From an uncultured Poribacteria bacterium (GTDB lineage Bacteria > Poribacteria > WGA-4E > WGA-3G), in contig OX638316.1 in assembly GCA_951812525.1 (NCBI GenBank), forward strand, positions 4,148,506 to 4,212,505: DNA of 64,000 nt, given 5' to 3'. The translations under genes and the position numbers were made by a program. How positions within the stretch are numbered: the stretch's first letter is position 1; each line of letters starts with the position of its first letter. The notes under the pieces are model-generated. The model had not been told where the DNA came from. It ran no database searches and saw only the letters and a program-made list of their open reading frames with translations. Shown piece by piece: positions 20,193-23,992 of the stretch.

Positions 20193-22658
20193 ATGAACAG
20201 CGACGTGCCTACTTTAAAAGCGCGCCTACCGGACAATATAACATCTATTCTTGAAAACCTACTCGGTTGCAAATTAGAAGACATACTTGCGGAGATCTCC
20301 GACGATACCGTTGCACTCGAAACTTTCCTATCCACACTCCCCACAGATTCCCTTGAAAGCTACCTTACCCCACAGTGGGTGGTTCTTGCTGCTGGGAAAG
20401 GCACTCGTATAGATCCCACCGGACGCTTGAGCAAAACGTTGGACATTATGTTCGGCGAGGAGAATATGCTCCAACGTTCTCGACGCTATCTGCCTGGCAC
20501 GCGCCCCGATATTGTCGTTATCAATCCACAGATGGCATCGCGTATCGAGAAAAGCGGATCCGCATCACAACTGTTAGGTCCAAATGCTGTTTACTGTATC
20601 CAAGAAGAGATGAACGGCACGGGCGGTGCGTTACAAGCAGCACTGCCTGCAGTCCGAGAATCCGATGCTGAATGGATCGGAGTGTCGTTCGGTGATGAGC
20701 CGTTTTTGGATAGAGATATTTTTGCACAGACGCTTCTCTCTCATCTTATTTCTGGTGCGGATGTCACCTTGTGCGGTAAAGTCCCTGAAACAGTCGTAGA
20801 TAAAGGTGGGCTTTTTTTCGATGCAGATGGAAGGTTCATAGGAACCAAAGAGTGGTACGACATGACGGACGCAGAAAAGCAGGAGATGTGGGATCGGTGG
20901 CATAATGGCGAGGCGTATACCAACACTGGTATTACACTCATTCGGAAAAGTGCGTTGTTAGAACGGATGCATCGGTTGCAACCGCACGCAAATCGAAATA
21001 ATGAACTCCATCAGGTAGATCTGATACGTCACTGTTATGAAGACGACTTGAAAACATACGCTTTTATCTATCGCGGCGAGGTACTGTCGGGAGTTAATCG
21101 TTGGTCGAATGTCTTATCGGGTGAAGCAGTAATGTTTGCGGAAACACGCGAGTTCCTTGCCCAGAAAGGCGTTCGCGTCGATCCGGCTGCACAGATAACG
21201 TTGAGTAGCGAGGATATTGAGATTGGGACGGCGTGCTATCTCGTCGGTAGGGTGCATCTCGGTGAAAAGGTTCGGGTTGGAGACTATTGCAGACTTGAAT
21301 ATGTCACACTGCTCGGTGCGACGACGGTGGGCGATGCGGTTGGATTGGAAGGTGTCTCTGCTACCGATACGACCTTTGAAGGCAACCCGTTACCCGAAAC
21401 AGTAGCCGCACCTGTGCATGGTCTTGCGGTTGCGAGTACGATTAAAAATAGTACGTTTGATGCCGCAAACATTGGGAGTGAGGTCCAACTCTCGTCGGTT
21501 GTGGCGCGAGGGACGGTGATTCCATCCGGTATTATTTTAGCAGACCGGACGCTCGGTGTTCCACCTGCGCAAGCCCCACCTTCGGTGCCGAAATCAGTCT
21601 TTGATCGGATTGTGCCACCAGGCTATCACCCTGGAGTCTTCAATCTTGGTGAGAAGAAGGGATCACCGGATTGGAAAGGTCTACGGCAGCATTTCCAATC
21701 GCACAGTGCTTCGGAACTGGTTCCGCGTGCAACACGTATACCAGAATTACAACAGGTTATGGGTGAGGCGGTGAAAACATTTTTGGATATACGCCGGGCA
21801 GATGGTGCTTATCTGATTGAGGCACTTACACCTGAAGAGATATGGGGAAGCATCTTCGAGATGGTCACCCTGCATACAGGCAACCTGAATCCCTATCACC
21901 ACGATAAACTGCAAGCACGAGAGACGGCTTTGGAACTCCTCCCGGAGTTCTGGGATAACGATTGGTTGCATCGTTTGAAGTTGGTTGTTACAGGGAATAT
22001 CATTGATTACAGTAGCGAGCGGGTTATAAAACGGTTGCAAGCGAATCCCGACTATTTCTCTGAAGTCCTGCGTGCAGCGGTTGACGCACCTTTCGCTATA
22101 GACTGCTATGAAGCGTTTCGCGAGCGGGTAATTGACGGGACACCGCAGGAGATTGTTTGGCTCGTTGATAACGATGGCGAAGTGATTTTCGATATTGCCT
22201 TCGTTCAAGATCTCATTGAATGTGGACATCGTATCACGATTGTTGGGAAAGCAGACAACGCCAGCAACGACGCAACGGTGGCGGACCTACAGGACATTGT
22301 AAATTTGCCGCAATTCGGAAAACTACCGACTGCGATACAGGACGGTGCTGTGAGATTAATGTCGTCAGGCGCAAAGACAATCGGCACGAATCTTTATCAC
22401 GGGACGCCGGAATTTTTCAACGCCTTGTTAGAAGCTGACGTCGTTATCTCAAAGGGGCAAGGGAATTTCTTTACAACACCGGGGTGGGCAAAAGATACAT
22501 TCTACCTATTGCTTTCCAAAGGTATGATTGCGGAACGGAGTACGGGGGTCGTCGCCGATCAGCATCTGCCGGTTGATGGATTGATTTTGGCTTATCTTCC
22601 GGGTGGGACAGCACGTACGGAAATGCTGCGAGAACTCTGCCGTAAAACCGATCTTTAA
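20193..22658 (+). CDS. Nucleotidyltransferase / hexapeptide / DUF89 fusion protein
   Basis: 821 residues in three parts. Residues about 60-320 form a GlmU-like sugar-nucleotide transferase: WVVLAAGKGTRI (nucleotide loop), EEMNGTGGALQAALP, and GDEP for metal binding. Residues about 325-440 are a short left-handed beta-helix with hexapeptide spacing (VGRVHLGEKVRVGDYCRLEYV, NIGSEVQLSSVV). Residues about 455-815 match DUF89/ARMT1-type metal-dependent phosphatases: TGNIIDYS, VWLVDNDGEVIFD, NDATVADL, IGTNLYHGTPEF and VISKGQGNF. GlmU-type enzymes make UDP-sugars and DUF89 proteins remove phosphate from reactive sugar phosphates, so one chain may both activate a sugar and clear a damaged or competing phosphate. 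Substrate unknown. TAGGAG lies 12 nt before the ATG. Confidence 0.83.
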   Translation: MNSDVPTLKARLPDNITSILENLLGCKLEDILAEISDDTVALETFLSTLPTDSLESYLTPQWVVLAAGKGTRIDPTGRLSKTLDIMFGEENMLQRSRRYLPGTRPDIVVINPQMASRIEKSGSASQLLGPNAVYCIQEEMNGTGGALQAALPAVRESDAEWIGVSFGDEPFLDRDIFAQTLLSHLISGADVTLCGKVPETVVDKGGLFFDADGRFIGTKEWYDMTDAEKQEMWDRWHNGEAYTNTGITLIRKSALLERMHRLQPHANRNNELHQVDLIRHCYEDDLKTYAFIYRGEVLSGVNRWSNVLSGEAVMFAETREFLAQKGVRVDPAAQITLSSEDIEIGTACYLVGRVHLGEKVRVGDYCRLEYVTLLGATTVGDAVGLEGVSATDTTFEGNPLPETVAAPVHGLAVASTIKNSTFDAANIGSEVQLSSVVARGTVIPSGIILADRTLGVPPAQAPPSVPKSVFDRIVPPGYHPGVFNLGEKKGSPDWKGLRQHFQSHSASELVPRATRIPELQQVMGEAVKTFLDIRRADGAYLIEALTPEEIWGSIFEMVTLHTGNLNPYHHDKLQARETALELLPEFWDNDWLHRLKLVVTGNIIDYSSERVIKRLQANPDYFSEVLRAAVDAPFAIDCYEAFRERVIDGTPQEIVWLVDNDGEVIFDIAFVQDLIECGHRITIVGKADNASNDATVADLQDIVNLPQFGKLPTAIQDGAVRLMSSGAKTIGTNLYHGTPEFFNALLEADVVISKGQGNFFTTPGWAKDTFYLLLSKGMIAERSTGVVADQHLPVDGLILAYLPGGTARTEMLRELCRKTDL

Positions 22659-23992
22659 TCAGTGTCGGCGGTTACTTTTGAAATCGTGAACTGCCGCTTG
22701 CCTGAAGTAGGCAGTGGAATCTCCTCCACAAATTCTATTGTGACAACTACATCGCCACCGAGCACCTTCTGGATACCGTGGACGAGGTAACGACGTGATG
22801 CTTCTGTCCAGTCTTTGTTAATAACCAATTTCAAGACACAATGCTTAAGTGATTCTTGGATTATCTGAAACTGGCTCACACCCTCAATACCATAGAATTG
22901 TTGTGTAAAATAGCCGCCGTGTACCAGCGCGCCAGTTCTCGTTCGGAAGGTAGCAGTGGTGCGTCCGAGCAAATCGTCCAAAATAGGTAACTGATTACCA
23001 CACGGACAGATTTCGTCAGAGAGAATGCCGATGTCTCCGATTCGGTAACGGATAAACGGCATCACATAGTTATTGAGTTGCGTAATCAGAATCTCTCCCG
23101 GTACGGCGTATGGATTGGGACTATCTATTTCAAGGTAGATGTCGCGGCAATTGATATGCATCCTGCCTTCGGTACATTCCATGGCAATCAATCCGACTTC
23201 TCGTCCACCGTAGCGATTGTAAACCTTTGTCCTGAAAACTTCCTCCGCCAAAGCGCGGTAATGCGGATGTAGCATCTCAGCGGAAGATATGATTCCTTTC
23301 AGTGACCATTTGTGTACCAATCCGTTTTCATAGAGAAATGTGGCAAACTGGTAGAGAGAGGAAGGATAGGTGAGGATTGTCTGTGGACGACATCTGTTCA
23401 TTCGTTCATACGTTGCTTGCATTTCTTCATCCGTGAGGTGAAATCCGTTGAGCCAATACTGATTTCGCCAAAAAGTGTTGAGGCGATGTTTCCAGTCTTC
23501 ATCTCCTTTTATATCTGCGGGTGCACCCCAGATAACCAGTTGAGGTTCACCATGATTCCAGCCTGCCCATCGATCAAAATAGTAGACGCTCAAGTTACGT
23601 TGATTCCAATAATACCTCCCCTGATAGAAAGTAAGGGGTGTCCCAGTCGAACCGCCAGTGGCGTTCTTAATCCGTTCCTGCTCTGTAAAGCGATCGGAAC
23701 AGAGACGCTCCAAATGCTCTCGTATGTTCTCCTTCTCAAGCGGTGGAATCTGTGTTATATCTGGCGTGTCTGTCTCTAACAATTCCCTATAGTAAGGAGT
23801 TGTGTAATAAGCGTGTCGGATGAGTTTTCCTAAGCGGACGCGTTGAAACGCCTCAATAGCCTCGCGCGAGGAATCCAGCAGTGCAGCAGTTTGCGAGAGC
23901 TGGGAGTGATAATGCAGTCCTTTGCGGTAGGTATTGTAGGAATGCCACGCCATTTTTGAGAGCAGCATTTTAAAAGAACGATGAATTGACAT
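22655..23992 (-). CDS. CapK/PaaK-like adenylate-forming enzyme
   Basis: 445 residues of the phenylacetate-CoA ligase/CapK group. The AMP-binding P-loop is NATGGSTGTPLTFYQG near 110-125; further motifs are YPSSLYQFA, ISSAEMLHP, VYNRYGGREVGLIAMEC and RYRIGDIG. CapK-type members are used in polysaccharide and exoproduct gene clusters, and the acid they activate is often unknown. The C-terminal lid domain is present. It meets the DUF89 fusion gene tail to tail with a 4 bp overlap. No strong ribosome site is seen before the ATG. Confidence 0.8.
   Translation of the reverse strand: MSIHRSFKMLLSKMAWHSYNTYRKGLHYHSQLSQTAALLDSSREAIEAFQRVRLGKLIRHAYYTTPYYRELLETDTPDITQIPPLEKENIREHLERLCSDRFTEQERIKNATGGSTGTPLTFYQGRYYWNQRNLSVYYFDRWAGWNHGEPQLVIWGAPADIKGDEDWKHRLNTFWRNQYWLNGFHLTDEEMQATYERMNRCRPQTILTYPSSLYQFATFLYENGLVHKWSLKGIISSAEMLHPHYRALAEEVFRTKVYNRYGGREVGLIAMECTEGRMHINCRDIYLEIDSPNPYAVPGEILITQLNNYVMPFIRYRIGDIGILSDEICPCGNQLPILDDLLGRTTATFRTRTGALVHGGYFTQQFYGIEGVSQFQIIQESLKHCVLKLVINKDWTEASRRYLVHGIQKVLGGDVVVTIEFVEEIPLPTSGKRQFTISKVTADTD

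Follow-up and report, generated by a model that had tools for sequence, protein, structure and literature searches.

A GlmU-type nucleotidyltransferase joined to a DUF89 phosphatase is probably a UDP-GlcNAc enzyme of Poribacteria

Introduction

The synthesis of UDP-GlcNAc by GlmS, GlmM, and GlmU is among the most conserved routes of bacteria and is a drug target. The DUF89 phosphatases, which divide into subfamilies I, II, and III, are known as standalone proteins and from fusions in the CoA pathway. PANK4 consists of a (pseudo)kinase and a DUF89 domain and limits CoA synthesis by dephosphorylating 4'-phosphopantetheine, and two aspartates are essential in this DUF89 domain (PMC9352595). Another paper names the joining of DUF89 to a CoA gene as one of the fusions from which a function was found (PMC4921024).

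In this study, we analysed a gene in a 64,000-nucleotide stretch of DNA (hereafter, the window) from Poribacteria, a phylum associated with sponges. The gene encodes a nucleotidyltransferase, a left-handed beta-helix, and a DUF89 phosphatase in one chain. The protein resembles GlmU in its N-terminal transferase, which has most of the uridylyltransferase residues, and in the beta-helix that follows. It differs from GlmU in that the helix is short and lacks the acetyltransferase residues, in its score with the GlmU model (about 80 bits, where the cut-off is 367), and in the additional C-terminal phosphatase. In our reading, it resembles PANK4 and related PANK-DUF89 fusions, in which a DUF89 phosphatase is joined to an enzyme, or the relic of one, from the biosynthetic pathway on which it acts (PMC9352595). 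Those fusions, however, belong to the CoA pathway and have a partner of kinase fold, whereas the partner here is a sugar nucleotidyltransferase with a beta-helix; no kinase family, and hence no pantothenate kinase domain, was found among the Pfam matches of the window protein. The parts, a GlmU-type transferase and a DUF89 phosphatase, are known, and it is their joining that appears to be new. An initial sequence-only reading had known of no characterised enzyme with this domain order; none was found in the literature searched, nor was anything that treats DUF89 together with GlmU.

We propose, with a probability of roughly 50%, that the fusion is a two-headed enzyme of UDP-GlcNAc and amino-sugar metabolism, in which GlmU-type synthesis of UDP-GlcNAc is combined with a DUF89 domain that drains a phosphate of the same pathway.

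Results and discussion

Domain architecture of the fusion protein

The features of the gene are listed in Table 1. The sequence-only reading had described the order transferase, beta-helix, and DUF89 on the basis of the motifs LAAGKGTR, DNDGE, NDAT, and SKGQGNF. All four motifs were correct, and the order was borne out by Pfam, NCBIfam, profile comparisons, and the fold of the DUF89 part. Among the three Pfam families that it had named, PF12804 and PF01937 matched the window protein, whereas PF00132 did not match there and was found in 12 of 17 family members. The DUF89 match, whose absence would have spoken against that reading, was strong, and the middle part, which might have turned out to be a linker, contains hexapeptide coils as judged from the PF00132 matches of the relatives and from profile matches. 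Thus, the three-part fusion first seen in the sequence is confirmed. No RNA feature in the window exceeded the gathering score.

Table 1 Features of the fusion gene, in positions of the window
Feature	Position	Strand	Remarks and evidence
Whole fusion gene	20193..22658	+	ATG start, 821 aa plus stop
Variable N-terminal extension, aa 1-57	20193..20363	+	Helices in AF2 model; most relaxed part by dN/dS
GlmU-type nucleotidyltransferase (predicted), aa 58-325	20364..21167	+	Pfam, NCBIfam, residues, dN/dS
Short left-handed beta-helix without GlmU acetyltransferase residues, aa 328-462	21174..21578	+	Profiles, hhalign, Pfam on relatives
DUF89/ARMT1-type phosphatase domain (predicted) including its own N-terminal helices, aa 463-821	21579..22655	+	Pfam, alignment, AF2 fold
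DNDGE, aa 659-663, with the first catalytic aspartate and the asparagine next to it	22167..22181	+	D659 and N660 invariant in 13 rows
NDAT, aa 692-695, with D693 as the second catalytic aspartate	22266..22277	+	Invariant in 13 rows
SKGQGNF, aa 753-759	22449..22469	+	K754, G755, Q756, and N758 invariant in 13 rows

Behind the N-terminal extension, the first approximately 16 residues of which are missing in many relatives, the transferase part of the window protein was matched by PF12804 (aa 63-193, E 1.7e-9) and PF00483 (aa 63-296, E 2.8e-5), both over their cut-offs. The best NCBIfam model was TIGR01173 (glmU), with 79.6 bits over aa 63-383, far below its cut-off of 366.85. We compared 14 fusion representatives with E. 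coli GlmU (L076), assuming the roles generally given to its uridylyltransferase and acetyltransferase positions. Nine GlmU residues (R18, K25, Q76, G81, D105, E154, N169, E195, and N227) are identical in all 14 representatives, and T82 and G140 are the same in 13; in the window protein, K25, Q76, D105, E154, N169, E195, and N227 correspond to K81, Q137, D168, E220, N244, E271, and N302, respectively. Of the remaining positions, K15 is the same in only six representatives, Q79 and Y197 are replaced, and L80 and T199 vary or are replaced. Most of the uridylyltransferase active site of GlmU is therefore retained, and uridylyltransferase activity is predicted, although the sugar specificity is not readable from the sequence. 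The structural models contributed little to this half. The mean pLDDT of an AF2 model of aa 52-468 alone was 43, the transferase and the helix were poor in two models, and in the structure comparison of the full model the GlmU rows were weak (Z 8-9) and were kept out of the evidence. Hence, the assignment of the transferase and the helix rests on sequence.

The profile of the middle part matched the helices of LpxA and GlmU in the PDB (E 2.4e-7 and 6.2e-6, respectively), and hhalign placed this part on residues 284-333 of E. coli GlmU, that is, on its first helix coils, with a probability of 93. A home-made hexapeptide-register score of the window protein was attained by only 8 of 2000 shuffles; this score alone proves little, fewer than 40 of 2000 shuffles attaining it in only 5 of 17 members. 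These comparisons indicate a genuine beta-helix, although a short and weakly marked one in the window sequence. None of the seven acetyltransferase residues of E. coli GlmU that were checked (R333, K351, H363, Y366, N377, N386, and K392) is conserved, in a region where the alignment is weak, and the AF2 model of the helix was too poor for use.

The C-terminal half was better defined. PF01937 (ARMT1-like) matched aa 554-759 with E 9.2e-31 and 107.6 bits against a cut-off of 25, and all 17 family members were matched at E 0.01. The positions of D659, N660, D693, K754, and N758 are invariant in an alignment of 13 rows, nine of fused and four of standalone DUF89 sequences. In the AF2 model the pLDDT was mostly 80-93 over residues 560-815. 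The closest structure was At2g17340 (1xfi; Z 26.2, 306 residues aligned, rmsd 3.3), which aligns over residues 463-804 of the model, so that the apparent linker at 463-540 belongs to the DUF89 fold. PH1575 (2g8l; Z 25.7), which ties with it in fold and is nearer in sequence, AF1104 (2ffj; Z 24.1), and 6umr, which we take to be human ARMT1 (Z 19.3), followed. The modelled C-terminal half thus has a DUF89 fold, and it resembles the standalone enzymes in its catalytic residues as well; in contrast to them, it is fused and lacks the N-terminal CxxC motif that is present in the four standalone relatives aligned. A metal-dependent phosphatase activity is predicted for this half.

Loss of the phosphatase site in two lineages

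Motifs of the DNDGE, ND-T, and SKGQGN types are retained in 50 of 52 distinct proteins of at least 500 residues from loci L001-L067, shorter sequences (standalone DUF89 and fragments) having been dropped before the count. The two remaining proteins, those of genomes G017 (L052) and G057 (L053), lack these motifs and keep the transferase motifs, so the phosphatase is dispensable in these lineages. A standalone DUF89 protein of G017 might replace it; G057 has none. This loss counts against our proposal as well as against two alternatives. In one of them, the two activities would be steps of a single synthesis, a sugar bisphosphate or 6-phospho sugar being dephosphorylated and then activated. Fusions often join consecutive steps, the GDP-heptose and MurNAc-recycling routes use a separate phosphatase, and most lineages have intact motifs of the transferase as well as of the phosphatase. 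Nevertheless, we consider it improbable that consecutive steps are joined here, because the transferase is retained where the phosphatase is ruined and because the neighbours GlmM, NagB, and NagA described below point to an ordinary amino-sugar route, in which no phosphatase is needed.

Distribution and selection

Concerning the taxonomic spread, on which the sequence-only reading had left the matter to a search, a fusion-level match (E under 1e-60) was obtained in 77 of 84 genomes of Candidatus Poribacteria. The fusion occurs in 69 of 72 genomes of the order to which the window belongs and in 8 of 10 elsewhere in its class. Two of the matches, those of G062 and G068, cover the gene only in part and were found at the ends of contigs; G040 and G055 each have the gene on two contigs. 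The seven genomes without the fusion are G048, G069, G058, G059, and G003, which are 73-88% complete, G001 (91%), and G012 (96%). G001 and G003, which belong to other classes, have standalone DUF89 genes. G012 is a member of the window's own family and has neither the fusion nor a canonical GlmU; the fusion is therefore not the sole possible source of UDP-GlcNAc.

A scan of a genome collection of 84,980 species, which finds close relatives only, yielded 29 loci, all from Candidatus Poribacteria by title. Among plasmids, 11 records contained one half only and none covered 80% of the protein; among viral contigs, 55 pattern matches included no relative. A comparison of nine close pairs gave dN/dS values of 0.06-0.10 in the transferase, 0.07-0.12 in DUF89, and 0.18-0.53 in the N-terminal extension; purifying selection thus acts on the two catalytic domains. 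An assembly chimera is ruled out by this selection on both halves together with the matches in 77 of 84 genomes.

Amino-sugar genes of Poribacteria

A canonical GlmU over the TIGR01173 cut-off was found in none of 58 Poribacteria genomes, whereas 9 of 14 controls passed. The genomes contain a total of 5-17 matches each to the GlmU model, mostly short nucleotidyltransferases, and the best such match within the window genome is the fusion. The pathway was surveyed in a panel of 15 genomes that represent 14 genera. GlmM of the archaeal type was over its cut-off in 12 and MurA in 14 of them; for their MurA, the cells require UDP-GlcNAc. A UAP1/UDPGP enzyme was seen in G008 only. GlmS was over the cut-off in three genomes (G008, G035, and G005), and NagB was matched in exactly the 12 genomes without GlmS, in 11 of them over the cut-off. 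This complementarity suggests that, where GlmS is lacking, NagB acts as the synthase of GlcN-6-P, and hints at such a role in most Poribacteria. The three genomes with GlmS are relatives from two families of a single order, so the complementarity may represent one or two events.

The enzyme of the acetylation step was sought in the window genome, and no candidate acetyltransferase was identified. A hexapeptide protein lies beside GlmS in G008 and G005 and is a candidate; a related protein of L068 had no match in G000. In a search for a GlmU-type helix elsewhere using PF24894, three of the four strong hits fell inside GlgC genes beside GlmM and were rejected; the fourth was in G057.

A different fusion was observed in the two genomes in which the DUF89 site is ruined. 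In G057 (L068:1766-4150, +) and G017 (L069:2648-5092, -), a GHMP (galactokinase-like) kinase is fused to a GlmU-like nucleotidyltransferase, and in L068 NagB and a hexapeptide protein lie just upstream of it. It is similar to the fusion described here in having a GlmU-like transferase and, in L068, in its position beside NagB, but its partner is an N-terminal kinase and not a C-terminal phosphatase.

Genomic context of the fusion

In G061 (L101), the genes for GlgC, GlmM, YvcK, the fusion, and NagB are consecutive on one strand of one contig, adjacent genes overlapping or being separated by about 35 bases at most, and all four neighbours of the fusion are over the NCBIfam cut-offs. The order is the same in G060 (L102), where the assembly shows short or broken frames for GlgC and GlmM. 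Of the eight genomes of the class that carry the fusion and lie outside the order of the window, seven have YvcK directly upstream of it, namely all six that belong to family f5 and G057. NagB is directly downstream in five (G004, G040, G055, G060, and G061) and NagA in one (G057); none of YvcK, NagB, and NagA adjoins the fusion in G017. In the window's order, GlmM, YvcK, or the operon NagB was beside the fusion in none of 24 loci, a separation that counts against our proposal, and the GlmM-YvcK pair was retained in all eight loci examined (L077-L084). In G035, GlmS follows GlmM-YvcK.

This operon context in deep-branching relatives ties the fusion to UDP-GlcNAc or amino-sugar synthesis, and the assignment to the amino-sugar pathway is well supported. 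YvcK is identical with GlmR, which in B. subtilis binds UDP-GlcNAc and regulates GlmS (PMC7525490); in Listeria and further Firmicutes, GlmR/YvcK is reported to act as a uridylyltransferase (PMC10128056). Since YvcK is kept beside GlmM, this activity weighs against the fusion as the UDP-GlcNAc enzyme. The fusion might instead make another NDP-sugar for a surface polysaccharide, with YvcK/GlmR or one of the small nucleotidyltransferases supplying UDP-GlcNAc; the many GlmU-model matches per genome would allow this, as would the fact that G012 manages without the fusion. We regard such a division of labour as unlikely. The residues E154, N169, and mostly G140, which presumably form the sugar site of GlmU, are retained, and the fusion, besides being the best GlmU-model match of the window genome, follows GlmM-YvcK in the deep relatives.

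Proposed function

On these grounds, the fusion is probably the UDP-GlcNAc enzyme of a class without the usual GlmU rather than the generic fusion for the repair of sugar phosphates that the sequence-only reading had considered. In the proposed two-headed enzyme, the N-terminal domain would form UDP-GlcNAc or UDP-HexNAc from UTP and either GlcNAc-1-phosphate or a similar hexosamine-1-phosphate. The beta-helix would be a structural remnant without acetyltransferase activity. We infer UDP-GlcNAc as the product and NagB as acting in the synthetic direction. Because the context ties the protein to UDP-GlcNAc and amino-sugar synthesis, the substrate of the phosphatase is most likely a hexosamine phosphate; the DUF89 domain would hydrolyse GlcN-6-P, GlcN-1-P, phosphorylated GlcNAc, or one of these in damaged form. 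A single chain would thereby pull on the pathway and also drain what piles up before it, as a bleed valve comparable with PANK4. Apart from the points given above, the poor transferase model, the variable K15, the replaced Q79 and Y197, and the negative search for an acetyltransferase count against this proposal.

The other alternative affected by the loss of the phosphatase site concerns the same pathway, in which the phosphatase would perform true repair, destroying a wrong or damaged sugar phosphate that inhibits the transferase or is activated by it, with no metering of flux. The amino-sugar operon fits repair as well as it fits a drain, and some DUF89 proteins are described as preferring non-canonical phosphates such as fructose-1-phosphate and oxidised phosphopantetheine (PMC8669784). 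However, no damaged metabolite has been identified, and the DUF89 site was lost in two lineages in which the transferase was kept. Drain and repair are not separable from the sequence. By analogy with the DUF89 domain of PANK4, a flux-limiting role appears at least as likely as metabolite repair, and repair as the sole purpose seems to us rather doubtful, though to be taken seriously.

We tentatively extend the proposed push-and-drain function to a rebuilt UDP-GlcNAc route, a picture that we consider possible but would not put forward as the expected one. In this route, which would lack canonical GlmU and mostly GlmS, NagB would run in reverse to give GlcN-6-P, GlmM would isomerise it, and some other enzyme would acetylate the product. 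A uridylyltransferase carrying its own DUF89 would then make UDP-GlcNAc and bleed off hexosamine phosphates, with YvcK/GlmR as a sensor from the same operon. Such a single-chain valve on a precursor of the cell wall would be an independent reinvention of the PANK4 principle.

A whole uncultured class thus appears to lack canonical GlmU and mostly GlmS, and to have a phosphatase attached to the enzyme that probably ends the route. If confirmed, DUF89 phosphatases have been recruited independently to biosynthetic enzymes of CoA and amino-sugar metabolism, and the fusion is a single two-domain protein in which drain and repair can be tested directly against each other. The two lineages with intact transferase motifs and a lost phosphatase site provide a natural control.

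Other genes near the fusion and GlmM-YvcK loci

A GAF histidine kinase precedes the GlgC-GlmM-YvcK-fusion operon (L101:14539-17342, -; L102:1399-4128, +; L086:4450-7307, -; L055:5258-8477, -), mostly together with a small response-regulator-like gene; the Pfam test covered L101 and L102 only. It is possible that this kinase is a sensor for the operon. In the window, a gene for an adenylate-forming enzyme related to PaaK/F390 synthetase (22655-23992, -) is convergent with the fusion gene and overlaps its end; its NCBIfam matches were below the cut-offs and Pfam gave no match. A functional link between the two was dropped, since this gene, although its place beside the fusion is conserved in much of the family to which the window belongs, is missing from the deep relatives. 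HsdM- and HsdS-like genes of type I restriction-modification lie upstream of the fusion in several relatives (L013:8357-9991, L022:4712-6190) and none was seen upstream of the window fusion, the spot being a variable insertion site. Upstream of GlmM-YvcK, a TPR/HEAT protein and a 264-aa protein with no Pfam match are encoded (L077:7091-8545, also L078-L083) in most of the order.
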